Part shown: one piece after another, positions 20,281 through 43,891 of the stretch | Layout: each line of letters opens with the position of its first letter | Numbering within the stretch: the first letter of the stretch is position 1 | NCBI GenBank assembly: GCA_025934695.1 | Contig: JAICWS010000001.1 | Location: forward strand, 1,331,301 to 1,395,300 | Direction: 5' to 3' | DNA: 64,000 nucleotides | Origin: Alphaproteobacteria bacterium | GTDB taxonomy: Bacteria; Pseudomonadota; Alphaproteobacteria; Micavibrionales; UBA2020 | Translations under genes and position numbers: made by a program | Notes under the pieces: model-generated | What the model was told of the DNA's origin: nothing | The model's database searches: none | The model's input: only the letters and a program-made list of their open reading frames with translations

Positions 20281-21063
20281 ATGGCGGAAACTGAAATAGA
20301 ATGGACCGATGCGACTTGGAATCCCGTCGCGGGATGCACGATCAAAAGCGCTGGCTGTAAAAATTGTTACGCGATGAATATGGCGCGACGCCTAGACGCA
20401 ATGAAAATTGACAAGTATCGCGGATTGATCACCAAGAAAAAAACTGGCCCGATTTGGAGCGGCATAGTTCGAGAAGATCGAGCTTCATTATCCATCCCCT
20501 ATGGATGGAAAAAGCCACGTAAAATCTTTGTTAATTCTATGAGTGACCTATTCCATGACAAAGTCAGCGAAAGTTTTATTGCAGACGTGTGGAAAGTCAT
20601 GGAAGAAACGCCCCAGCATAATTACCAAATATTGACTAAACGTCCTGAACGAATGCAATTGATGGTAAAGAAAAAGCTGAAGAAAATACTCCCGAATGTT
20701 TGGCTTGGCACCAGTGTAGAAGACGTTCGTGTCATTTCACGCATAGATTATTTGAGGGCGACGCCAGCCGCTATTCGCTTTATTTCATTTGAGCCACTTA
20801 TTGGTTCAGTAGGTAAGGTCGATCTCAATGGGATCCACTGGGCAATCGTCGGCGGAGAAAGCGGCAATAAAGCGCGCCCCATAAAGGAAGAATGGATAGA
20901 CGAGATTTATGGGCAATGCGCCGCCTATAATACGGCCTTCTTTTTTAAACAGTGGGGCACTTGGGGAAAAGATAACAAAAAACGCTCAAAAAAAGCCAAC
21001 GGTCGTGTATACAGGGGTAGAACTTGGGATGAAATGCCTGTATATAATCAGGCTAGTTCATAA
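20281..21063 (+). CDS. DUF5131 (phage Gp37/Gp68) three-Cys-motif protein
   Basis: 260 residues. It opens with the family signature IEWTDATWNPVAGC followed by AGCKNCYAMNMARR, giving three cysteines in a C-x8-C-x2-C pattern reminiscent of a metal or Fe-S site. Later family segments are KIFVNSMSDLFHD, YQILTKRPERM, VWLGTSVEDV, IRFISFEPLIG and WAIVGGESGNKARP. Proteins of this family are found in phages and mobile regions; the reaction is not established. Codons are visibly AT-rich compared with flanking genes. It sits just after tRNA-Thr and 26 bases before its usual partner, TcmP. Confidence 0.9.
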   Translation: MAETEIEWTDATWNPVAGCTIKSAGCKNCYAMNMARRLDAMKIDKYRGLITKKKTGPIWSGIVREDRASLSIPYGWKKPRKIFVNSMSDLFHDKVSESFIADVWKVMEETPQHNYQILTKRPERMQLMVKKKLKKILPNVWLGTSVEDVRVISRIDYLRATPAAIRFISFEPLIGSVGKVDLNGIHWAIVGGESGNKARPIKEEWIDEIYGQCAAYNTAFFFKQWGTWGKDNKKRSKKANGRVYRGRTWDEMPVYNQASS

Positions 21064-21089
21064 ATTTCTACTTTTGGTTTATTTAAAGA

Positions 21090-22343
21090 ATGGCAATCAA
21101 AAATTACGATTGGCAGCATGGCGCCGAGCTCGACGACCACAGCAAACGTAAGCACAAAATATTAAACGAGTACTTCCGAGAATACTTAATCACGCGATGC
21201 AAACTACCTCAGCGAGAAAAATTTCGACTAGCGGTTGTTGACGGTTTTTCCGGCGCAGGCAAGTACAAATGCGGTAGTTTTGGATCTCCACTCATTTTTT
21301 TAGACTGCCTTAAAAAAACGGTTACCGAAATAAATATCGAGCGAACTCGCCAAGGCATGCGCCTCATCGAGGTCGAATGCCTTCTGCTATTTAATGACTT
21401 TAAACTGGTAGCGGTCGAACAGCTTAAACAAAACGTCGCGCCGCTAGAAATAGAAATCGCTGATACAACGAAGCAGTTACATGTCAAAGTTGACTATCAA
21501 AATAAAACTTTCCAAGATGCGTATCCGCTTTTCAAAAACATCATTCAAGCAGGCAACTATCGAAACGTAATTTTTAATCTGGATCAATGCGGATCATCGC
21601 ATGTAGATTTAGGCGCCATTAGGGATATTTTATCTACGTGGAAGTCAGCTGAAGTCTTCCTCAATTTCCCAATTGAAACGGTTAAGGCTTACATCTCTCC
21701 AGACGAAGCAAAAAGCAGCGCTCTCAAAAGCCATGCTGCACTAAGGGCAGAAATTTATGCCTCGCTAAAGGATGGAGACGCCCCCCTCAGTAAAGCAAGC
21801 TGGCTTGGTGAAGTTGAGCGGATTATATTTGAACACCTTAAAGGATGCGCGCCTTATACCAGTCCATTCTCAATTCACAATCCTGACGGCTGGCGTTATT
21901 GGCTCCTACATTTTGCAAATAGCTATAGGGCTCGCCAAGTCTACAACGACATTCTTCACAAAAATAGCTCTATGCAAGCGCACTTCGGACGATCTGGCCT
22001 AAACATGCTTTCGTACGATCCATCAAAAGACGGCGCGCTGTACCTATTTGACGCCGACTCGCGCAGGAGCGCCAAAGAGCAATTGCGAGAGGATATTCCG
22101 CGCGTAATTTCTGACCATGGCGACGTACTGAATGTTGAGAGCTTCTACGAATTTGCTTATAACGAGACGCCAGCACATAGCGATGATATAAATGAAATGA
22201 TTATTAACAATCCAGACGTTGAGGTCATAACGCCTGCCGGAAATGAGCGCCGGAGCGTCAATACAATTGGCACCGATGACCTGCTGAGGATTCGCAAACA
22301 AACAAGTATGTTTCCAATCTTCTTCGACCGTAAGAAAAAGTAA
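21090..22343 (+). CDS. tcmP: Three-Cys-motif partner protein TcmP
   Basis: 417 residues. Family members are named for pairing with the three-Cys protein, as here. The N-terminal third has a Rossmann-like methyltransferase-type motif, LAVVDGFSGAGKYKCG, and later VIFNLDQCGSSHVDLGAI in the place of a motif IV strand. The centre includes EVFLNFPIETVKAY, and the C-terminal half WRYWLLHFANSYRARQVYNDIL and SYDPSKDGALYLFD. These suggest a SAM-dependent or nucleotide-binding enzyme acting together with DUF5131; function unproven. AT-rich like its partner, indicating transfer of the two genes as a unit. Confidence 0.88.
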   Translation: MAIKNYDWQHGAELDDHSKRKHKILNEYFREYLITRCKLPQREKFRLAVVDGFSGAGKYKCGSFGSPLIFLDCLKKTVTEINIERTRQGMRLIEVECLLLFNDFKLVAVEQLKQNVAPLEIEIADTTKQLHVKVDYQNKTFQDAYPLFKNIIQAGNYRNVIFNLDQCGSSHVDLGAIRDILSTWKSAEVFLNFPIETVKAYISPDEAKSSALKSHAALRAEIYASLKDGDAPLSKASWLGEVERIIFEHLKGCAPYTSPFSIHNPDGWRYWLLHFANSYRARQVYNDILHKNSSMQAHFGRSGLNMLSYDPSKDGALYLFDADSRRSAKEQLREDIPRVISDHGDVLNVESFYEFAYNETPAHSDDINEMIINNPDVEVITPAGNERRSVNTIGTDDLLRIRKQTSMFPIFFDRKKK

Positions 22344-27541: not shown

Positions 27542-28444
27542 TCAGAATCCGAGATACAGGTAGGCGCCGGTGATGATCGTGAGGACCGGACCGCTGACCT
27601 GCTGGAGCGCCGTCAGCGCGTCGGCGCAGCGCTTTTCGTAAAACTCAGCCAGCTCCCGCAACGTGTGGCCGAGATTGCCGGTATCCTCGCCCGCCTTCAT
27701 CATCGCGAGCGCCATCTTGTCCATCCGGCCGGTCTCGCGAAAGGCCGCATGCAGCGACGCCCCCGCCTCGATCTGCGGGAGGGCCTCTTCGACCGACGCG
27801 CGAACGACGAGATTGGGAACATCTTCGGCGGCGGTTTTCAGCGCCGCGCGCAACGGAACGCCCGCGTCGAACAGCATCGCGAGGCTGTTGGCAAACCGCG
27901 CCCAGGAATCCTCGGAAAGGAATGTGCCGACGACGGGAAGCGCAAGGAATAGCCGGTCCGTCACATGGCGGAAGACCTCCAGCCAGCGGCGGAGAGCGAT
28001 AAAAGCGGCAATCAGCAGAGCCGAGGCGAGAGCGACGTCCGGTAAAAGCGTATGGCGGCGAACGAGGGCCAGCGCCAGGATGGTGATGACGCTGATCGTG
28101 GGCCCGCGCAACGCCTTGCGCATGAGCCGCCGGTGCTCATCGCGCTTGCGGACATAGTCGAGGCACAGGCCGAAGGCCCGCGCCAGCTTGCCCGATTTCT
28201 CGCCCACGCCGACGAGGCCGATCAGGGTTTCGTCAAAGGCACGCGGATAGAACCCCATCGACTCCTGCAGCGAGTGCCCTTGGCCGACCTGTTGCGCGAT
28301 GCCCTCCAGCGCGCCGCGCAGCTTTCTCTCCGGCGTCTCTTTGGCGGCTTCGGCCAGCGACTGGGAAATCGGAACGCCCGCCTTCTCCAGCTGCTCCAGG
28401 TGAAGGAACAGAATGATCAATCCGCGGTCGGAATTGCGGGACAT
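27542..28444 (-). CDS. Type II secretion / type IV pilus F-domain protein (orphan, short)
   Basis: 300 residues with two T2SSF domains: residues 10-120 (HLEQLEKAGVPISQSLAEAA, GLVGVGEKSGKLARAF) and 185-290 (FANSLAMLFDAGVPLRAALK, MMKAGEDTGNLGHTLRELAE). Membrane segments lie around 115-155 and at the C terminus (VLTIITGAYLYLGF). GspF/PilC platform proteins are usually about 400 residues and sit in operons with the E ATPase; here none is present. It overlaps its upstream neighbour's stop region by adjacency (one base apart), so the two are probably cotranscribed. Confidence 0.82.
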   Translation of the reverse strand: MSRNSDRGLIILFLHLEQLEKAGVPISQSLAEAAKETPERKLRGALEGIAQQVGQGHSLQESMGFYPRAFDETLIGLVGVGEKSGKLARAFGLCLDYVRKRDEHRRLMRKALRGPTISVITILALALVRRHTLLPDVALASALLIAAFIALRRWLEVFRHVTDRLFLALPVVGTFLSEDSWARFANSLAMLFDAGVPLRAALKTAAEDVPNLVVRASVEEALPQIEAGASLHAAFRETGRMDKMALAMMKAGEDTGNLGHTLRELAEFYEKRCADALTALQQVSGPVLTIITGAYLYLGF

Positions 28445-33012: not shown

Positions 33013-34842
33013 TTAACCCGCTTCCGCGACCTTTTCGAGGCGCTTGCGCTCATGCGGATTGAGGATGCGCTTGCGCAGGCGCAGAGATTTTGGCGTCACC
33101 TCGACGAGTTCATCGTCAGCGATGAAGGTGATCGCCTGCTCCAGCGTCAGGATGCGCGGCGGGATGAGCTTCACCATCTCGTCCGAACCGGAAGCGCGGA
33201 CGTTGGTGAGCTTCTTGCCCTTGAGCACGTTGACCGGCAGGTCGTTGTCGCGGGCATGCTCGCCCACGATCATGCCCTCGTACACATCCGTGCCCGGCAG
33301 CACCATGATGACGCCGCGCTCTTCGAGGTTCCACAGGTCATAGGCGGTCGCCTGACCTTGCGCCATCGCGACCAGCACGCCGGTGCGGCGGCCGGTGATG
33401 TCGCCCTTGTAGGGCTCCCAGCCGTGGAAGATGCGGTTCATGATGCCGGTGCCGCGCGTATCGGTGAGGAATTCGCCGTGGTAGCCGATAAGGCCGCGCG
33501 TCGGCGCCAGGAACGTCATGCGCAGCTTGCCGGCGCCAGAGGGCACCATCGCCATCATTTCGCCTTTGCGCTGCGCCATTTTCTGCACGACCGTGCCGGA
33601 GTAATCCTGGTCGACGTCGACGACGACTTCTTCCATCGGCTCGAGGCGCTCGCCCGTCGTCTCATCGGTGCGGAACAGCACCTGCGGACGGCCGATGCAC
33701 AATTCAAAACCTTCGCGGCGCATCGTTTCGATAAGGACCGACATCTGCAATTCGCCGCGGCCAAAGACTTCGAAATAATCCGCGGTGTCGCCTTCCTTCA
33801 CCTTGATCGCAACGTTGCCTTCCGCTTCGCGGAAGAGTCTATCGCGGATCACGCGGCTCGTGACCTTGCCGCCTTCCTTGCCGGCGAAGGGGCCGTCGTT
33901 GATGCGGAAGGACATGGAGATCGTGGGCGGATCGATGGGAAGCGCCTTTTGCGGCTCGGCAACGGCCGGATCGCAGATCGTATCGGCGACGGTCGCAGTT
34001 GTCATCCCGGCCAGCGACACGATGTCGCCCGCACCCGCCTGTTCGAGCGGTTCGCGGTTGATGCCGCGGAAAGCGAGGATTTTGGTGACGCGTCCCGCCT
34101 CGACCTGCTTGCCGTCGTGCGAGAGCGCCTTGATGTTCATGTTCGGCTTGACCGTGCCCGACAGGATGCGACCCGTGAGCAGGCGGCCGAGATAAGGATT
34201 GTTTTCGAGCAGCGTGACGAGCATTGAAAAGGGCTTGGTCTCGTCCACCGCGGGCGGCGGGACGAAGTCCACGATCAAATCGAAGAGCGGCGACAGATCC
34301 TTGCGCTCGTCGGTCAGCGTCGCAGCGGCCCAGCCCTGGCGGCCCGAGGCCCACATGATGGGGAAGTCGAGCTGTTCTTCGGTGGCATCGAGCGCGGCCA
34401 TGAGATCGAACACTTCCTCGTGCACCTTTTCGGGGCGCGCGTCGGGGCGGTCCACCTTGTTCACGAGGACGATGGGGCGGATGCCCTGCTTCAGCGCCTT
34501 GCCGAGGACGAACTTGGTCTGTGGCAGCGGGCCTTCCGCGGCGTCGCACAAGACGACGCAACCATCGACCATCGACAGGATGCGCTCCACCTCGCCGCCG
34601 AAGTCGGCGTGGCCGGGCGTGTCGACAATATTAATACGCGTGTCTTTCCAGACGACCGACGTCACCTTCGCGAGGATGGTGATCCCGCGCTCGCGTTCGA
34701 GTTCGTTGGAGTCCATCACACATTCCGCGACCTGCTGGTTTTCGCGGAACTGCCCCGACTGGCGCAACAGCGCGTCAACGAGTGTGGTCTTGCCATGGTC
34801 GACGTGAGCGATAATGGCGATATTCCGAAGCTTCGATGTCAT
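33013..34842 (-). CDS. typA: Ribosome-associated translational GTPase TypA/BipA
   Basis: 609 residues, full length. It is an EF-G-like GTPase needed for ribosome assembly and stress adaptation. G1 is [17 protein letters not shown], switch I includes [12 protein letters not shown]3 is [19 protein letters not shown]4 [13 protein letters not shown] and G5 ASGRQGWA. Domains II, III and V follow; the BipA-specific C-terminal segment [13 protein letters not shown] ends the protein. Monocistronic, with an AT-rich promoter region upstream divergent from the metallopeptidase cluster. Confidence 0.97.
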
Positions 34843-35026: not shown

Positions 35027-37075
35027 ATGAGCGGTAGCGGCACTAAATTCCTGGCAAGCACACTCCTCTATCTTAATTTGTTGCCCGGTTCGCTGGGCGC
35101 AGCCGCCGGGCCTGTAGCGCCGCGACCGCCGATTGCGCCTGGACAGACAACCACCGCTGCCTCGCGTTTCACCGAAAAGGCCGCCGCCGACGATGCACCC
35201 GCGTCCGGCGATCCCCAAGCGCAGCCACCCGCACAACCGCCCCCTTCCCAGCTGGCTGCCAAGGAGGCCGAGATCGACGCGGCTCTTGCCCGGCGGCGCG
35301 TCAATGAAACCTTGCGGTCCATCGCCATGGACGATTTCAAAAAGACGAGCAAATTAGCGGAAGACGGTTACTCGAAGGACCTAAAAAAGAAGCAGAGCGG
35401 CCTTTCGAAATACCTCCATAAGAACAACCCCGCCATGACGAAGGCCGTCATCGTCGACCCCCTCAAGTTCGACGCGGCGCTGGCCCTCGGCATGTCTCCG
35501 CAGCTGGCGACGCAGACGATCCTCGGCCTGCAGCACGTCTCTCCAGGCGACGAGTTGATCGCCAACATCACAAGCCACATGAAGTCCGATGACATGTCGG
35601 CGTTCGCCGCGACAGATTCCTATACCCAGGACGCCTCCGCGCATTGGGATTTCTTCAACAAAAAGCCGCAGGCCTGCGTGATCGTGCCGGAACCGGGCGC
35701 CGATCTCGCCGCGGCGGTGCCAGGACTGTCATACCAGGAGAATCTCGATTATTCGAACCTGCACGAAGGCTGGCACTGCAAAAACACCATGCTCGACTAT
35801 TCGAGCGTGCCGAAGGAGGTTTACGCGGGCGTCGACCAAGGGGCGCCGGAGAAATCGATTGGCCACGAAGACCAGCTGAAGGTCTTCTCCATCATGGACA
35901 AGGGCGAGTCACTTTCCGACGTCGGCGCGCTCGGCGACATGATCCGCAAGGGCCACGGCCTCAACGTCATCGACAAAGTGCAGGCCTGGCGGAACAACAA
36001 TTCCGAGGATTACGGGCATTGGGCGAGCGCCGCGCTGGAAGGCCTGAAGAAGAAGATAAACGAGATGGGAATCGACAAGTTCCGAAAGCTGAACGACAAG
36101 GACGCCGGTAAGCTGTATGAAACCGTCGTGAATGAGAACGCCTATACGCCGCGCGAGGCGGAAGTCATTTTCCAGTACCGCAGGAAAGCCGACGATGCGG
36201 ACCGCGCGGAGCTCCGCGACTGGAAATCGAATTTCGACACGCTGGAAACCATGATGTCGACGGGCGCCGCGGTCCATGACGGTGCGGATACGAAGACACT
36301 CGACAACGCCATCGCGCAGGCGCAAGTGCCGCAAACCCGGGACGCGCTCTCCGCCCTGCGCAGCCAGATCAACACAATGGGCGTCGACAAATTCCGGGCG
36401 CTTGGTGCTGACGATGCCGCCAAGCTGGCGGAACATCTCACGGCCAGCGGCAAGGTGCCGGACGGTATCGCGACCAATGCCGCGGACTATTGGGCCGCGC
36501 CGCCCGACGACCGGAAGGCGATGGAAAAAATGATCGCCGATTACAAGACAGCCATTCCCAAGGCGCTCGACATCATGAAGCCTTACGGCGAACCGCCAAC
36601 GGACGCGGAAAAAGCGGCGCAAGCGCAGGCAATAGCCGACGCGGGGGCGCAGGCGAACGCTGCCGCGAAGCCGCTTTCGCCGCAGGAGCAGGAGGTCTTC
36701 GCGCAGCTGGCAAAGTGGGACGCGGCGACGATGTTGCAGGACCGCGCCTTCGCCAAGGACGGCAAGATCACGCCCGCCACGCTGATCAAAGCCTATGGCA
36801 AGATGCAGGAAGAATTGCGCGCCCAGCTGGTGAAGACGCCGGACGATCCCTTGCTCCACGCCAAGGTGGGCAAGCTGCAGGCTTCCTTTATCTCGACGGT
36901 CCAGGATCTCGATTATGTCGACGCCAATGCCCAGCGCGGGGTGAACATCGTTGCCAAAGAGCCCGCCCTGAAAGAGGCGCTGAAGAAGCTGCCGCCGATG
37001 CCCCATACCAAGCTGGTCCAGCTGCCTGACGGTACCGTGTTCAAGCGCGCGCCCCAGCCGGGGCCGGGGGTGTAG
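35027..37075 (+). CDS. Predicted secreted zinc metallopeptidase, HExWHC family, paralog 1
   Basis: 682 residues from an ATG with CAGGG upstream. Residues 5-28 resemble a signal peptide (KFLASTLLYLNLLPGSLGAA), followed by a Pro/Ala linker. The core shares with the next two proteins IVDPLKFDAALALGM, QACVIVP, LHEGWHC (His246-Glu-x-x-His250) and GESLSDVGALGDMIRKG, whose Glu294 lies 48 residues after His246. This is the arrangement of a gluzincin zinc site (HExxH plus distal Glu). It uniquely repeats an internal module (INEMGIDKFRKLNDKDAGKL and INTMGVDKFRALGADDAAKL). The C-terminal helical module has DGKITPATLIKAYGKMQ. No known peptidase family recognised. Confidence 0.72.
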   Translation: MSGSGTKFLASTLLYLNLLPGSLGAAAGPVAPRPPIAPGQTTTAASRFTEKAAADDAPASGDPQAQPPAQPPPSQLAAKEAEIDAALARRRVNETLRSIAMDDFKKTSKLAEDGYSKDLKKKQSGLSKYLHKNNPAMTKAVIVDPLKFDAALALGMSPQLATQTILGLQHVSPGDELIANITSHMKSDDMSAFAATDSYTQDASAHWDFFNKKPQACVIVPEPGADLAAAVPGLSYQENLDYSNLHEGWHCKNTMLDYSSVPKEVYAGVDQGAPEKSIGHEDQLKVFSIMDKGESLSDVGALGDMIRKGHGLNVIDKVQAWRNNNSEDYGHWASAALEGLKKKINEMGIDKFRKLNDKDAGKLYETVVNENAYTPREAEVIFQYRRKADDADRAELRDWKSNFDTLETMMSTGAAVHDGADTKTLDNAIAQAQVPQTRDALSALRSQINTMGVDKFRALGADDAAKLAEHLTASGKVPDGIATNAADYWAAPPDDRKAMEKMIADYKTAIPKALDIMKPYGEPPTDAEKAAQAQAIADAGAQANAAAKPLSPQEQEVFAQLAKWDAATMLQDRAFAKDGKITPATLIKAYGKMQEELRAQLVKTPDDPLLHAKVGKLQASFISTVQDLDYVDANAQRGVNIVAKEPALKEALKKLPPMPHTKLVQLPDGTVFKRAPQPGPGV

Positions 37076-37078
37076 CAC

Positions 37079-38626
37079 ATGGACGATGCGCCCGATAACC
37101 TGCCGGATACTTTCGCCGCCCACGTTCTCGATGCAGCGGGAGAGGTGGGCCTGGGCGGCAGCCAGTTCCTGGCTTCCGACGCGGCGAAGCGGCGCACTCC
37201 ACCGTTGGCCGTCCCGCAAGGCCACGCCGGCAGCGACGCCCGGCGCGATGACATCAACCAGGCGCTGTTGGCGCAGGCGCGGCGGAACTACCCGTCGCTG
37301 ATGAACGGCGTCCGCACAGAATATTCCGCCTATCTTGAAGGGCTGCAGCAGCGAACTAATGCCGATCTGCGCACGGAAGGCAACCGTTTCCACTCGCAGG
37401 CCGTCATCCTCGACCCCGCGAAATATGACGCCGGGATCGCGCTTGGCATTAGGGGGCCGGAGACGGTCGGCGCTCAATTGCAGGCGCAGGGCGCGGCGAC
37501 AGCGCCCGGCGTGCCGGAAATGGCGGATGCCCGCATGTCGTCCTATTATCCGACGAAGTTCGGAAACCCGACCTACACCCAAGCCCCCACGGCGCTGCAG
37601 AATCCGAATAACGGCGGCGGGCTGCAGGCCTGCGTCGTCGCTCCAGCATCCGACTATGCCATGATAGACGGTCTGAACATTCCGGGTCTTTCCACCGCCG
37701 ACCGCATCAAGTTCCTTGACCGTCACGAAACCTGGCATTGTCGGGACGACCGCTATTCGATGGCGGGCATCAATCCCGACGATCTCAAGACCATTGACCC
37801 CAACAATGACAAGACGCTTGCGGACAACGCGGCCGGCTGCAAGGTCCTTGCCACCCTGTACCAGAAGGAAGCCTTTGCAGACACCGGCGCGATCGGGTCA
37901 ATGCTGCGGGAAGGCTATGACATGTCGCTGCTCGACAAGGTCGCGAACTGGCGCAAGGGCAGCCCCGCTGACACGATCCATATCACGACGCCGGTGCTGC
38001 AGGGCCTGAAACAGGAAATCGAGGACATAGGCGGCATTGACAGGTTCCGCGCCTTGAGCGATGCGCAGGCTAAGGAGCTTTATTACAAGACTGTCGACAA
38101 ATACGGCGTCAGCGGCCCGGCCGTGCAGACGGCGCTGAAATACAAGCTTGCCGACCCGCTCCAGACCATCGGCCACCAGATCGACGCGGTTTTCGACCGG
38201 GACTCCAGCAAGGGAATTGATTTCTACCGTTACTTCAGCGCAACCGGCAAGCCCGCGCCGGGAACGAGCCTGACCGCCGACCAGCAGCGCCAGCTCGATG
38301 CCTATAATCCGCAGGCGTCGATGGAGGACCAGGCCTTCAGTACCAGCGGCAAGGTGACGCCCGAAACCATGATCGGCGCCTATACCCGGATGCAGGACCA
38401 GTTCCGCACCCTGATCAAGCAGCATCCGGAAGATCCCCTTTACCCGCAGGAGATGGCAAAATTGCAGAAAGCCTTCACCGACAACCTGCAGCGCATGGAT
38501 TATGCAGCGGTGAACAACCGCTATGGCGTTAAAATCGAGAACGTCGAACCGTCACTGGCGGCATTTTCAGGCGGACAGCAGCGGCCGGCAGCACCAAGAA
38601 TGCTGCCGCCGGCGATAAAGCCCTGA
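37079..38626 (+). CDS. Predicted zinc metallopeptidase, HExWHC family, paralog 2
   Basis: 515 residues, starting three bases after the previous stop, so translationally coupled. No signal peptide is evident, unlike its neighbours. Shared motifs: VILDPAKYDAGIALGI, QACVVAPAS, DRHETWHC (His216, Glu217, His220) and KEAFADTGAIGSMLREG with Glu264, again 48 residues on. The C-terminal module has TSGKVTPETMIGAYTRMQ and MDYAAVNNRYGVKIENVEPS. Either it stays in the cytoplasm, is exported another way, or its true start lies in a leader that cannot be seen. Confidence 0.7.
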   Translation: MDDAPDNLPDTFAAHVLDAAGEVGLGGSQFLASDAAKRRTPPLAVPQGHAGSDARRDDINQALLAQARRNYPSLMNGVRTEYSAYLEGLQQRTNADLRTEGNRFHSQAVILDPAKYDAGIALGIRGPETVGAQLQAQGAATAPGVPEMADARMSSYYPTKFGNPTYTQAPTALQNPNNGGGLQACVVAPASDYAMIDGLNIPGLSTADRIKFLDRHETWHCRDDRYSMAGINPDDLKTIDPNNDKTLADNAAGCKVLATLYQKEAFADTGAIGSMLREGYDMSLLDKVANWRKGSPADTIHITTPVLQGLKQEIEDIGGIDRFRALSDAQAKELYYKTVDKYGVSGPAVQTALKYKLADPLQTIGHQIDAVFDRDSSKGIDFYRYFSATGKPAPGTSLTADQQRQLDAYNPQASMEDQAFSTSGKVTPETMIGAYTRMQDQFRTLIKQHPEDPLYPQEMAKLQKAFTDNLQRMDYAAVNNRYGVKIENVEPSLAAFSGGQQRPAAPRMLPPAIKP

Positions 38627-38659
38627 CTTTTTTTATATGACCTTTTGAGGAACCGGTAT

Positions 38660-40258
38660 TTGAACGACCCGAACGCCAAACCAGGCGCACTTCCCATCGC
38701 CGGCACCCTTACCGCGGCCTTCCGCCGTTTTGCCCTGCGCACCACGCTGATTGCCGGCGTCATGGGCGCGACCGGCCCCACAGGAACAGAGGCCGAGAGC
38801 AATGCCCCCGCCGTCGGTCAGCCCGGGCCGGTATCCGGCACGGCGCCATCAGCCCCGCCCCTTTTAAGCGTCCGGGAAAAGAAACGCCGGGCCCGCATCC
38901 GCGAGGCGCTGCTGGAAAGCGCAAGGGGTGATCTGGACAGCCTCGAAGCCGGCTCCGAGACCGGCTATACCCGCGACCTCCAGGGCCTGGGCAGTCGGTT
39001 GACCGGTGAATTGCAGGCCGCTCACTCCACCGTCCATAACAAAGTCGCCTTCGTCGACCCGCAAAAGCTCGACGTGGCCCTGTCGCTTGGCTTTGCGCCG
39101 GATTATGCCGTTGGCAGGCTCCTGGCCGAACAGAGGATTCATATTCCGGACAACCAGCTGGCGCAGGCCGGCCAGAAAGCCACGAGTTATTATGAGTCAA
39201 AATTCGGGATAAAGACCTATACCCAGGACCCGACGGCCTTAACCAACCTGCGCAACCCAAATCCGCGGGCCTGCGTGGTCGTGCCCTCGTCCGAACGGTC
39301 GCCGGATATCGACATTCAGGGCCTCTCGCGGCCGGACATTGTCGAATTCACCAATCGCCACGAAGGCTGGCACTGCCTGGACGGCAAGTACAACCTGCGC
39401 CACCTCGACCCGGAGAAGCTCGAGGCCGTGAGGAAAGGCACCCTCGGCTCCCAGATCAATGACCGCACCGCGCTTGAAATCTATGCCACGATATATCGCA
39501 AGGAGGCGCTGGCCGACGTGGGCGCGACCGGCGATATGATCCGCGCCGGCAAGGGGCTCGACCTGATCGACAAGGTCGCCGACTGGCGTGCCCAGGATCC
39601 CAAGGACCTCCAGCACCTCTCGTCGCCCGTGCTGAAGGGGCTGAAAGCCAAAATCGGGGAGATCGGGCTCGATAACTTCCGCAAGTTGAGCGATACCGAC
39701 GCGCAGAAGCTTTATTTCGAGGTGACGGACAAATGGGGCATGACCGGCAGGAGCTTGCAGACCGGCCTGCGCTTCGAAATGGCGAAGGGCGCGGAACGCC
39801 AGGGCTATCTCGACCGTTTCGGCAAGGACCAGGACGTGACCCGGGCGCTGCTGCTCGAGACCTATGTCGCGAAAGCGCGGCCGGATCAGCCTGCGGCGGG
39901 CCTCAGCGGGACCGATGCGGCGCTGGCAGCGCAGCTTAAAAACTGGGACGCCGACAAGCTGCTGGACGATAAGGCCTTTGAAATGGGTAAGAAAATCACG
40001 CCGCAAACGATTATCGCCGCCTATAACCGGCTGCAGGGAGACCTGCACGGCAAGATGACGTCTGACCCGGACAACAAGCTCTATCCCCTCCAGGCGACGA
40101 AGCTGCAGCAGGCGTTTTTGACCCACGCGCGGGAGCTGGACTATGTCGGCGCGAACGCCGCGCGCGGAGTTGACATCGTCAAGACCGAGGCGGCGCTGAA
40201 GAGTTTCGCCGAGCCGCCGAAAAAAAATGCCTCCGCGGGTGCTCCAGTCAGCGGCTGA
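38660..40258 (+). CDS. Predicted secreted zinc metallopeptidase, HExWHC family, paralog 3
   Basis: 532 residues from a TTG seven bases after GAGGAA; a TTG five codons earlier overlaps that site. The N terminus RRFALRTTLIAGVMGATG may be a signal or anchor. Shared motifs: FVDPQKLDVALSLGF, RACVVVPSS, NRHEGWHC (His234, Glu235, His238) and KEALADVGATGDMIRAG with Glu282, 48 residues on. The C-terminal module has GKKITPQTIIAAYNRLQG and LDYVGANAARGVDIVKTEA. It follows paralog 2 by 33 bases and ends the cluster. Confidence 0.72.
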   Translation: MNDPNAKPGALPIAGTLTAAFRRFALRTTLIAGVMGATGPTGTEAESNAPAVGQPGPVSGTAPSAPPLLSVREKKRRARIREALLESARGDLDSLEAGSETGYTRDLQGLGSRLTGELQAAHSTVHNKVAFVDPQKLDVALSLGFAPDYAVGRLLAEQRIHIPDNQLAQAGQKATSYYESKFGIKTYTQDPTALTNLRNPNPRACVVVPSSERSPDIDIQGLSRPDIVEFTNRHEGWHCLDGKYNLRHLDPEKLEAVRKGTLGSQINDRTALEIYATIYRKEALADVGATGDMIRAGKGLDLIDKVADWRAQDPKDLQHLSSPVLKGLKAKIGEIGLDNFRKLSDTDAQKLYFEVTDKWGMTGRSLQTGLRFEMAKGAERQGYLDRFGKDQDVTRALLLETYVAKARPDQPAAGLSGTDAALAAQLKNWDADKLLDDKAFEMGKKITPQTIIAAYNRLQGDLHGKMTSDPDNKLYPLQATKLQQAFLTHARELDYVGANAARGVDIVKTEAALKSFAEPPKKNASAGAPVSG

Positions 40259-40375: not shown

Positions 40376-40446
40376 GTATGAGGGCACGGCAGCGAATGAT
40401 TCGCGTGCGGTTATCTCATAAACGCCCTGAGGAGGGTGTGCATGAA
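40376..40446 (+). promoter_or_regulatory. Structured mRNA leader that sequesters the ribosome-binding site (speF-like)
   Basis: The 71-base leader folds by inspection into an outer stem (TATGAG 40377-40382 with CTCATA 40415-40420) enclosing a hairpin (GCGAA-TGA-TTCGC, extended by GCAC/GTGC, 40384-40408). A second hairpin, ACGCCCT-GAGG-AGGGTGT (40422-40439), has a loop and 3' strand that contain the GAGGAGGG ribosome-binding site. An alphaproteobacterial leader motif named speF, upstream of ornithine decarboxylase genes, is known from comparative work; identity with it is inferred from position and cannot be checked here. Confidence 0.5.
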
Positions 40447-41646
40447 ATGGACGATTATGACGGCCCTGACGAGGTGGTGCGACGACGCCGCCCAGACATC
40501 CCGGTAACCTGTTTCCGCCCCGCGGCGCTCGAAAACGCCGCCAAATGGTTCCTCAGCAACTTCCCCGGCAAAGTCCTCTACGCGGTTAAAGCCAACCCCG
40601 CCAAATATGTCCTCTCGGGCCTCTACGCCGCCGGCATCCGCCACTACGACGCCGCCTCCATCCCCGAGATCCAGCTCGTCCGCGAGCTCTGCCCCGGCGC
40701 CCACATCGCCTTCATGCATCCGGTCAAAAGCCGCCCGTCGATCGAGCAGGCTTATTTCGACCATGGCGTACGCGATTTCTCCTTCGACAGCATCGAAGAG
40801 ATGGAAAAGATCGCCGTCTGCACGGGCAAAAGCAAAGACCTCGGCCTGTTCCTGCGCCTGGCCGTTCCGAACACCTCGTCCGAGCTGCCTCTGTCGGGCA
40901 AATTCGGCTGCCTGCCTGAAAAGGCCCCCGAAATCCTGAAAGCGGCCCGCAAGATTTCCAGGAAGCTGGGCATCTGCTTCCACGTCGGTTCGCAGACGAT
41001 GGACCCGCAGGCCTATGTGACGGCCCTGAGCCTCGTCGGCGGCATTCTGCGCAGCATTCCGCGCACCCGCGTCGACGTCATAGACGTGGGCGGCGGCTTC
41101 CCCTCGATTTACCCCGACATGGCCCCACCTGCCCTGTCCGACTACAAGACCGCCATCGAGAGCGGCTTCGACAAGCTTCCCCACCCGGAACGCTACGAGT
41201 TCTGGTGCGAGCCCGGGCGCGCCCTGGTCGCCGAGAGCGCCTCGGTGGTCGTCCAGGTAGAGCTTCGCAAGGACGATGTCCTTTATATTAACGATGGAAC
41301 CTATGGCAGCCTGTTCGACGCAGGCCACCTTGGTTTCCGTTACCCGGTTCGTCTGATCCGTCCGACGCCGGGAGGCACCAGTGCGCCGCACAAGGGTTTC
41401 CGCTTCTACGGCCCGACCTGCGACAGCATTGACTATATGCCAGGCCCCTTCTTCCTGCCGGAAGACGTCAGGGAGGGGGATTACATCGAGATCGGCCAGC
41501 TCGGCGCCTACGGGAATACCATGCGCACGGACTTCAACGGCTTTTCGGCCCATGAAGTCGTGTCTGTGAAAGCCCCGCCGCTGGTCACGCTCTACGATGA
41601 CACCCAGGAAACGACGGATACACAAGAGCTTGTCGCCGTAGGTTAA
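40447..41646 (+). CDS. PLP-dependent ornithine/lysine decarboxylase, alanine-racemase fold
   Basis: 399 residues of the fold type III (eukaryotic-like) decarboxylases; makes putrescine from ornithine, possibly also cadaverine. Motifs: LYAVKANPAKYVLSGL (PLP lysine), HYDAASIPEIQLV, ICFHVGSQ, VIDVGGGFPSIYP, WCEPGRALVAESA, GPTCDSIDYM (catalytic Cys and substrate Asp) and QLGAYGNTMRTDFNGF. The ATG at 40447 follows a hairpinned ribosome-binding site; upstream in-frame codons fall in the leader. First gene of a polyamine cluster with a DHS-like gene and a ureohydrolase. Confidence 0.9.
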   Translation: MDDYDGPDEVVRRRRPDIPVTCFRPAALENAAKWFLSNFPGKVLYAVKANPAKYVLSGLYAAGIRHYDAASIPEIQLVRELCPGAHIAFMHPVKSRPSIEQAYFDHGVRDFSFDSIEEMEKIAVCTGKSKDLGLFLRLAVPNTSSELPLSGKFGCLPEKAPEILKAARKISRKLGICFHVGSQTMDPQAYVTALSLVGGILRSIPRTRVDVIDVGGGFPSIYPDMAPPALSDYKTAIESGFDKLPHPERYEFWCEPGRALVAESASVVVQVELRKDDVLYINDGTYGSLFDAGHLGFRYPVRLIRPTPGGTSAPHKGFRFYGPTCDSIDYMPGPFFLPEDVREGDYIEIGQLGAYGNTMRTDFNGFSAHEVVSVKAPPLVTLYDDTQETTDTQELVAVG

Positions 41647-41771
41647 GAACCGGCGCAAAGGAACTACCCGAAGCCTTCGAAACCGCCCGCATGACGCGGG
41701 GGACGACTTTCGTCTCTTCCCTTAAAGGAAGATCAGGACAGGGCCTTTATAACCGAAAAGGAAGAGAGACC

Positions 41772-42836
41772 ATGAAAAACCTGAAAGCGGTCAAGACCAA
41801 GCCGCACCCTAAGAGCAACCGCAAGGCAGCCCTGCTGAGCACGCCGATCGAGCATATCGACATCAAGTCCTTCGATGCCCGTCCGATCATCGAAGGCATG
41901 AACAAAATGTCCTTCACCTCCCGCGACTTGGGGCGCGCCTGTGAAATCTTCAACACCATGCTGCAGGACAAGTCGGCGACCAGCATCCTGACGCTCGCAG
42001 GCTCGACCTCGGCCGGCGGCTGCATGGACCTCTACACCGAGATGGTGAAAAGCAACATGGTGGACGTGATCGTCGCGACCGGCGCTTCCATCGTCGACAT
42101 GGACTTCTTCGAAGCGCTCGGCTTCAAGCATTATCGTGCGGACAACCAGGTCGACGACCGCGACCTGCGCGACCTCTACATCGATCGCATCTACGACACC
42201 TATATCGACGAGGAAGATCTCCAGGCCGTCGACCATACGATCTTCGAGATCGCGCAAAGCCTGGAACGCCGCCCCTATTCCTCGCGCGAATTCATCTGGG
42301 AGATGGGCAAATACCTGACGAAAAAGGCGAAGAAGAAAAACTCGCTCGTGCAGACCGCCTATGAGCACGGCGTGCCGATCTTCTGCCCCGCTTTCGTCGA
42401 CTCCTCGGCTGGTTTCGGCCTCGTGCTGCACCAGAAAAAGAACCCGAAGAACTACATGTGCATCGACGCGGTCGCGGATTTCCGCGAACTCACCGACGTC
42501 AAGGTCGCGGCCGGCACCACCGGCCTGCTCATGATCGGCGGCGGCGTGCCGAAGAACTTCACGCAGGACACGGTCGTCTGCGCGGAAATCCTCGGCCACA
42601 AGGACGTCGACATGCACAAATACGCGATCCAGGTCACCATCGCCGACGTACGCGACGGCGCCTGCTCCTCCTCCACGCTCAAAGAAGCCTGCAGCTGGGG
42701 CAAGGTCGACGTGGCGCTTGAGCAGATGGTCTTTGCGGAAGCGGGCTCGGTCATGCCGCTCCTGGCCTCCGACGCCTATCACCGCGGCCACTGGAAAAAG
42801 CGCAGCCGCCGCAACTGGCAGAAGCTGTTTAAATAA
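41772..42836 (+). CDS. Deoxyhypusine synthase-like enzyme, probable polyamine aminobutyl transferase
   Basis: 354 residues of the deoxyhypusine synthase family: LTLAGSTSAGGCMDLYTEMV, DVIVATGASIVDMDFFEALG, YEHGVPIFCPAFVDSSAGFG and EACSWGKVDVALEQ, in which the lysine corresponds to the catalytic Lys of the eukaryotic enzyme. Bacteria have no eIF5A to modify, so a role as homospermidine synthase or in a related NAD-dependent transfer is likely, consistent with putrescine-making genes on both sides. The start follows AGGAAGAGAG. Exact product unproven. Confidence 0.85.
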   Translation: MKNLKAVKTKPHPKSNRKAALLSTPIEHIDIKSFDARPIIEGMNKMSFTSRDLGRACEIFNTMLQDKSATSILTLAGSTSAGGCMDLYTEMVKSNMVDVIVATGASIVDMDFFEALGFKHYRADNQVDDRDLRDLYIDRIYDTYIDEEDLQAVDHTIFEIAQSLERRPYSSREFIWEMGKYLTKKAKKKNSLVQTAYEHGVPIFCPAFVDSSAGFGLVLHQKKNPKNYMCIDAVADFRELTDVKVAAGTTGLLMIGGGVPKNFTQDTVVCAEILGHKDVDMHKYAIQVTIADVRDGACSSSTLKEACSWGKVDVALEQMVFAEAGSVMPLLASDAYHRGHWKKRSRRNWQKLFK

Positions 42837-42847
42837 AAAGTTTGTGT

Positions 42848-42957
42848 CGCCCCGGCGAAAGCCGCGGCCCACGGACTACATTAGGCCCGTAACACAAGTC
42901 TATCCGGTTAAATTTGCACGGACCAAGTCCGTGGATTCCGGCCTTCGCCGGAATGAC
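42848..42957. repeat. Palindromic intergenic repeat, family A copy 4
   Basis: Left arm CCCCGGCGAAAGCCGCGGCC plus CACGGAC; right arm GTCCGTGGATTCCGG plus CCTTCGCCGGAA. It lies between the DHS-like gene and the ureohydrolase inside an apparent operon and ends 20 bases before the ureohydrolase ATG, so it could modulate read-through. Confidence 0.75.
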
Positions 42958-42976
42958 AATGATGTGGAGTTTGAAA

Positions 42977-43891
42977 ATGCAATTCATGACACCTTCGGCC
43001 GGCTTCCTCGGCCTGCAGAAGAAGGACGCGGCCTCGGCGAAAGACGCCAATATCGTCGTCATCCCCTTCGGCCTCGAGAAATCGGTTTCTTACGGCGGCG
43101 GCACGGCGAAAGGCCCGGCGGCGATGATCAAGGCCTCGCACCAGGTCGAACTGTTCGACGACGAGTTCTGGAGCGAACCGTTCCGCAAATACGGCGTCCT
43201 GACCGCCAAGCCGGTGAAGATCAGCAAATCGGTGCCGCAGGCGCTCGAGCAGCTGGATGCGGAAGTCGAAGCCGTGCTGAAGATGGGCAAATTCCCCTTC
43301 GTCTTTGGCGGCGAACATTCGATCACCGCGGGCTCCATCCGCCCCTTCGCGCGCCGCTATAAGGACCTGCATGTGCTGCATTTCGACGCGCATGCCGACC
43401 TGCGCGACGGCTATGACGGGGAACATTATTCCCATGCGGCGGCCCTGCGCCGCGTGCTCGATCACAAGAGCGTGACCAAGCTATGCAGCTTCGGCATCCG
43501 CAATATTTCGCAAAGCGAAATCCCCTTCCTCGAGAAGAGCAAGGGCCGCGTGAAAATCTATTGGGCGCGCGAAAAGGCGAAATGGGACATCAAGGAAATC
43601 GTCAGCCACTACAAGGGCAAGAACGTCTATGTCACCTTTGATATCGACGGGCTCGACGCCAGCCTGATGCCCGCGACCGGCACGCCCGAGCCGGGCGGGC
43701 TATTCTGGGACGAATGCATGACGATCATCCGCGAAGTCGCAAAAGTTTCGAATTTTGTGGGCGCGGACGTCAACGAACTCGCCCCGCGGCCCGAGCTGCA
43801 TTCCTGCGACTTCCTGGCCGCCAAGCTCGCCTACAAGATCATGAGCTACGCATTCCTGGTCAGCAAGGCGAAGGCGAAAAAGGCCGCCTGA
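42977..43891 (+). CDS. speB: Agmatinase-type ureohydrolase
   Basis: 304 residues of the arginase/agmatinase superfamily, which releases urea from agmatine to give putrescine. The manganese site is complete: GGEHSIT (His), LHFDAHADLRD (Asp-x-His-x-Asp) and TFDIDGLDASLMPATGTPEP (Asp-x-Asp). GLEKSVSYGGGTAKGPAAM near the N terminus matches agmatinases better than arginases. The start was chosen for GGAG seven bases upstream; the frame extends into the repeat. The presence of both a decarboxylase and a ureohydrolase suggests two putrescine routes, or that the enzyme acts on another guanidino compound. Confidence 0.88.
   Translation: MQFMTPSAGFLGLQKKDAASAKDANIVVIPFGLEKSVSYGGGTAKGPAAMIKASHQVELFDDEFWSEPFRKYGVLTAKPVKISKSVPQALEQLDAEVEAVLKMGKFPFVFGGEHSITAGSIRPFARRYKDLHVLHFDAHADLRDGYDGEHYSHAAALRRVLDHKSVTKLCSFGIRNISQSEIPFLEKSKGRVKIYWAREKAKWDIKEIVSHYKGKNVYVTFDIDGLDASLMPATGTPEPGGLFWDECMTIIREVAKVSNFVGADVNELAPRPELHSCDFLAAKLAYKIMSYAFLVSKAKAKKAA

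Follow-up and report, generated by a model that had tools for sequence, protein, structure and literature searches.

What are the three adjacent genes, each encoding a protein with an HExWHC motif, that lie between a TypA/BipA gene and an ornithine/arginine decarboxylase-like gene in a genome of the alphaproteobacterial order Micavibrionales? The stretch of DNA analysed here (the window) is 64,000 nucleotides long (assembly GCA_025934695.1, contig JAICWS010000001.1, positions 1,331,301 to 1,395,300), and the features discussed below are collected in Table 1. Our best reading is that the proteins are new as a family and old as a mechanism: a Micavibrionales-restricted, mostly exported family of gluzincin-type (clan MA(E)-like) zinc metallopeptidases, an interpretation to which we give a probability of about three in four.

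The triplet, its locus and its relatives

Only 3 bases separate genes 1 and 2 and 33 bases separate genes 2 and 3, and the TTG start codon of gene 3 lies shortly 3′ of a GAGGA sequence, so that the triplet is probably expressed as one transcript. As anticipated for three neighbouring plus-strand genes with a common HE(G/T)WHC motif, they are paralogues, and this relationship is far above chance: the proteins are 24–34% identical in pairwise comparisons, and the gene 3 protein as query recovers gene 2 at E 2.6e-87 and gene 1 at E 1.7e-53. Across the 4.13-Mb genome, a degenerate DNA pattern for the motif, CACGARNNNTGGCAYTGY, has three hits and no more, and the same pattern read backwards has none. 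The gene 1 protein is longer because of an insert in which a 30-residue helical segment occurs for a second time; alignment of residues 336–365 with 440–469 scores 82, and the shuffled maximum is 40.

The original prediction spoke of an amplification, and in this respect it has to be revised. Each gene of the triplet pairs one-to-one with a gene of the sister genome G001, with full or near-full support in the tree, so the triplet is older than the split between the two genomes and a recent amplification is ruled out; these are old paralogues, each with its own orthologue. The locus itself is also recurrent, and most contigs of sufficient length have the order TypA (minus strand), one to five family genes (plus strand) and the ornithine/arginine decarboxylase, with one departure (L033); in several contigs deoxyhypusine-synthase-like and arginase-family genes lie beyond the decarboxylase.

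We also note some features of the window in their own right. The decarboxylase, deoxyhypusine-synthase-like and arginase-family genes stand in a row at 40378–43891 and probably constitute a polyamine locus; a deoxyhypusine-synthase fold is notable in a bacterium, and this protein is perhaps a homospermidine synthase. At 20281–22343 there is a low-GC island (0.446 vs about 0.60) that looks horizontally acquired, encoding one protein that we take to resemble phage Gp37/68 (DUF5131) and a neighbour that presumably resembles three-Cys-motif partner proteins. A phage origin was considered and rejected, as the proteins of the window drew no more than weak unknowns from PHROGs, family relatives are absent from the viral contigs searched, and BFVD gave nothing significant; a part in anti-phage defence was set aside in the same way, PADLOC giving no match.

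Table 1. Positions of the triplet genes, of their sites and segments, and of the syntenic anchors in the window
Feature	Position	Strand	Remarks
TypA/BipA, syntenic left anchor	33013..34842	-	
Gene 1, predicted HExWHC metallopeptidase paralogue, 682 aa	35027..37075	+	probable signal peptide; orthologue L024:1589-3619
Gene 1 Cys217, proposed disulfide partner	35675..35677	+	
Gene 1 HEGWHC (246-251)	35762..35779	+	
Gene 1 ExxxD (294-298), proposed third zinc ligand	35906..35920	+	
Gene 1 helical segment, copy 1 (336-365)	36032..36121	+	
Gene 1 helical segment, copy 2 (440-469), internal duplication	36344..36433	+	two matches to profile positions 316-381
Gene 1 C-terminal helical module (approx.)	36689..36970	+	
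Gene 2, paralogue, 515 aa	37079..38626	+	without recognisable signal peptide
Gene 2 Cys185	37631..37633	+	
Gene 2 HETWHC (216-221)	37724..37741	+	
Gene 2 ExxxD (264-268)	37868..37882	+	
Gene 2 C-terminal module (approx.)	38273..38566	+	
Gene 3, paralogue, 532 aa	38660..40258	+	probable signal peptide after long n-region
Gene 3 predicted peptidase domain (66-410), folded alone	38855..39889	+	AlphaFold2
Gene 3 Cys205	39272..39274	+	on strand 203-208 of the model
Gene 3 HEGWHC (234-239), end of helix 224-240	39359..39376	+	motif, AlphaFold2 model
Gene 3 ExxxD (282-286), within helix 269-295	39503..39517	+	motif, AlphaFold2 model
Gene 3 His319, putative transition-state stabiliser	39614..39616	+	
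Gene 3 C-terminal helical module (approx.)	39917..40201	+	
Ornithine/arginine decarboxylase-like, syntenic right anchor	40378..41646	+	

Searches for paralogues in the window genome, made with a profile, located further copies on contig 1 (HEGWHE) and contig 2 (HETWHC), the latter beside a neighbour that has lost the motif, and the C-terminal module only of the family on contig 5. With a broader profile, relatives are found in 24 of the 142 genomes of the Micavibrionales but not in any of 397 others sampled across the phylum (Pseudomonadota); a narrower one matches nothing among 384 other genomes sampled across the class, of which a few are from the same order. Scanning 84,980 species for a conserved peptide yielded only ten loci, all in MAGs, two of which are named Micavibrio and the remainder Alphaproteobacteria or Rhodospirillaceae; one of the ten is DDBY01000120.1 ('Micavibrio sp. 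UBA2020'). As far as these searches reached, the family appears to be confined to the Micavibrionales. Distant HEGFHA lipoprotein homologues were seen in L046 and L047 (genomes G074 and G073, each a single 2.5-Mb contig).

The putative zinc site and the predicted fold

The positions first given for HEGWHC, HETWHC and HEGWHC, and for a Glu at +48 from the first His, are correct in all three triplet proteins. The spacing of 48 is constant in the triplet but not family-wide, being 46–51 in close relatives and about 31–35 in some distant ones. Alignment of 20 relatives, 16–37% identical to the gene 3 protein and all containing HExxH, reveals only five invariant columns, His234, Glu235, His238, Glu282 and Arg310 (gene 3 numbering), and two nearly invariant ones, Asp286 (at least 90%) and Gly297. 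The longer distal motif proposed at the outset is therefore reduced to ExxxD, and the unit conserved across the family is HExxH ... ExxxD, a gluzincin layout; HExxH is absent solely from a pseudoenzyme branch. In gluzincins the third zinc ligand is the Glu of ExxxD, and the Asp keeps a zinc His in position; in thermolysin the residue that orients a zinc His in this way is Asp170. His319, at +85, is invariant in the close family and is a His or a Tyr in several distant rows, a pattern that would fit a transition-state stabiliser. We thus envisage a site in which the two His and the Glu would bind one zinc, the Glu of HExxH would activate water, the Asp of ExxxD would orient a zinc His in the manner of the thermolysin residue, and the His or Tyr near +85 may stabilise the transition state.

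The AlphaFold2 model of the full gene 3 protein has a pLDDT of 84.3 and a pTM of 0.81, with the first 63 residues disordered, and residues 66–410 folded alone reach 89.7 and 0.88. The order of elements in the models (beta-sheet, active helix, Glu helix) fits a zincin, with the nearest structures all at Z < 8, a range in which, as the tool warns, a match may reflect no more than a common arrangement, so that each one alone proves little. Foldseek returned no significant match for either the full model or the domain. In a second look with VIA-align, the full model was closest to an M32 carboxypeptidase (Z 6.9, 168 aligned), followed by M9 collagenases, M13 PepO, M34 and M2, and the domain to M36 (Z 6.4, 197 aligned), M9 (Z 4.9), M48 BepA (Z 4.8) and M13; scores for M32, M36 and M9 span Z 4.5–6.9. 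Some unrelated proteins score like gluzincins in these comparisons, and thermolysin (M4) is not among the listed neighbours of either model, which excludes nothing. The point of the structural comparison is the repeated appearance of several gluzincin families near the top. The gluzincin-like zinc site originally proposed is supported by the conservation of HExxH and ExxxD, and the model fold is compatible with it.

No named family had been recognised, and the database searches bear this out. The triplet has no match at E < 0.001 among Pfam, NCBIfam or PDB sequences, the best weak scores, which lie well below the cut-off or stand isolated, being ShyC (0.0085) and Peptidase_M28 (0.011, in one of 21 members), and no confident match to a non-peptidase family emerged. 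Membership of M48 or M32 was tried and rejected: hmmscan finds neither PF01435 (M48) nor PF02074 (M32) in the triplet or its relatives, and profile–profile scores against M48 and M32 proteins taken from the same genomes as the family are at the level of the unrelated TypA and decarboxylase controls, the highest probability for M32 against the superfamily profile being 2.8%, a meaningless level. DUF6782 was considered as a relative, but Pfam returned no match to it and the papers listed make no mention of it; nor did we find a paper naming the family in the open-access literature.

Cysteines, export and the C-terminal module

Each triplet protein has one Cys within ACVxxP and another directly after HExWH, a pair that had been taken to be invariant and perhaps to form a disulfide. 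The invariance holds in the triplet but not across the family. On a 39-row tree, the group without both Cys requires five changes, at least four of which are forced by well-supported branches, and a single clade retains only the downstream Cys; for the distant rows scored as having both, the position of the upstream Cys in the same alignment column was the criterion. Loss of both together would be expected of a disulfide, and the four or more independent joint losses thus support the proposed bond, which we regard as probable and which would tie one strand of the sheet to the active helix. Loss of the cysteines does not simply track location, since some rows that lack the pair look exported.

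Plausible signal peptides in genes 1 and 3 (from the sequence and a simple hydrophobicity scan) make it likely that two of the three proteins are exported, as predicted. Most relatives have Sec-type signal peptides or lipoboxes (LISGC and similar); the same scan detects no signal peptide in gene 2, its orthologue or the contig-1 copy, and several outlying copies also lack one. Most members would reach the periplasm via Sec, as soluble proteins or lipoproteins, and the few that lack a signal peptide may have another place of action. A type II secretion F-like protein (PF00482) is encoded a few genes upstream of the triplet, at 27542–28444 of the window, and L025 and L032 have similar-looking ORFs close to the locus; two secretin-like genes score under the GspD cut-off.

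The last ~100 residues of the proteins form a separate helical unit. On contig 5 of the window genome, L067:8188-9555 encodes a lipase domain of the Tle1-like type (PF09994, E 2.6e-59) with the family's C-terminal module behind it; the module is matched at E 1.6e-6 and 1.4e-7 by a profile made without that protein. No second fusion of this kind was seen among the 142 genomes, and the genome's other two Tle1-like proteins, which are shorter (391 and 397 aa), gave no match to the module. Since the module is also found on a Tle1-like domain, it appears to be a unit in its own right, with binding or targeting as its probable function. We think it improbable that the module serves for exchangeable targeting or delivery along an undescribed Micavibrionales export route, bringing HExxH peptidases and a Tle1-like lipase to the same place, and with them the copies without a signal peptide. 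Type VI delivery is not supported, because no TssC/VipB sheath gene is present in the genome (estimated 99% complete) in a search whose control found it in E. coli, and the idea of a type VI cargo was dropped.

Candidate roles and comparison with known systems

The likeliest job of these putative peptidases would be proteolysis in the envelope or on extracellular proteins, with paralogues that differ in substrate. Two versions of this are considered here as shares within the metallopeptidase reading, rather than as rivals to it. We tentatively give some weight to a role in envelope quality control or processing, with periplasmic proteins of the cell itself as the substrates, a role like that of BepA, itself periplasmic and a member of M48, with its HExxH ... 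ExxxD layout. Single-copy members with a signal peptide do occupy the conserved locus in several genomes, and BepA is among the weak structural matches, but a patchy distribution and varying copy number are unusual for a core quality-control enzyme, and M48 enzymes are already plentiful in these genomes.

It is rather unlikely that the proteins serve predation or competition as secreted or surface-held peptidases, digesting envelope proteins of prey or neighbours with paralogues matched to their targets. The order does include the epibiotic predator Micavibrio, and M. aeruginosavorus is reported to have type I and type II secretion and a large set of hydrolases, part of which is expected to digest prey (PMC3189940). 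The apparent export of most members, the copy number of one to five at a single locus, and a C-terminal module in common with a Tle1-like lipase domain all point the same way. However, with members in only 24 of the order's 142 genomes, these genes are not generally required for predation in the order, seven genomes from the window's own taxonomic family have no member, and the missing type VI sheath gene also counts against this role.

HExxH proteins other than peptidases exist, and the family might retain a zincin-like fold for binding or for another enzymatic activity, which we think improbable: an alpha-ketoglutarate oxygenase HExxH domain is among the weak structural matches of the domain, and a supported clade without HExxH persists, with members that adjoin an intact paralogue in two genomes (L066:8125-10919 and L068:9604-12388, where an intact HExWHC-type lipoprotein stands beside a paralogue without both putative zinc-ligand His), so that non-catalytic roles do exist in the superfamily, but none of the 20 motif-bearing rows departs from the proposed metal ligands or from the Glu that would activate water.

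If the metallopeptidase reading is correct, these genes represent a new metallopeptidase family peculiar to one order, whose bacteria are for the most part uncultured and include a known epibiotic predator. It would come with its own built-in tests, in the covarying cysteines, the active and inactive paralogues side by side, and the portable C-terminal module, and would offer a handle on envelope or prey proteolysis in the Micavibrionales, where few genes have tested functions.

The closest known systems are the gluzincins in general, several of their families, and the Tle1-like lipases. M48 and BepA have the same HExxH ... ExxxD layout and a weak structural match, but their profile comparison is negative. 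The M36 fungalysins and M9 collagenases are among the top scores of the domain, but give no Pfam match and have another domain layout; the M32 (Taq-type) carboxypeptidases provide the top structural score of the full model, but they too lack a Pfam match and the profile probability is negligible. The Tle1-like lipases have an unrelated catalytic domain, and yet one of them in the window genome ends in the same C-terminal module. The family differs from the gluzincins (clan MA(E), thermolysin-like) in having no sequence match to any gluzincin family, a probable disulfide beside the second His and an extra helical C-terminal module, whereas it shares with them the HExxH, the ExxxD on a second helix, and the His or Tyr downstream.
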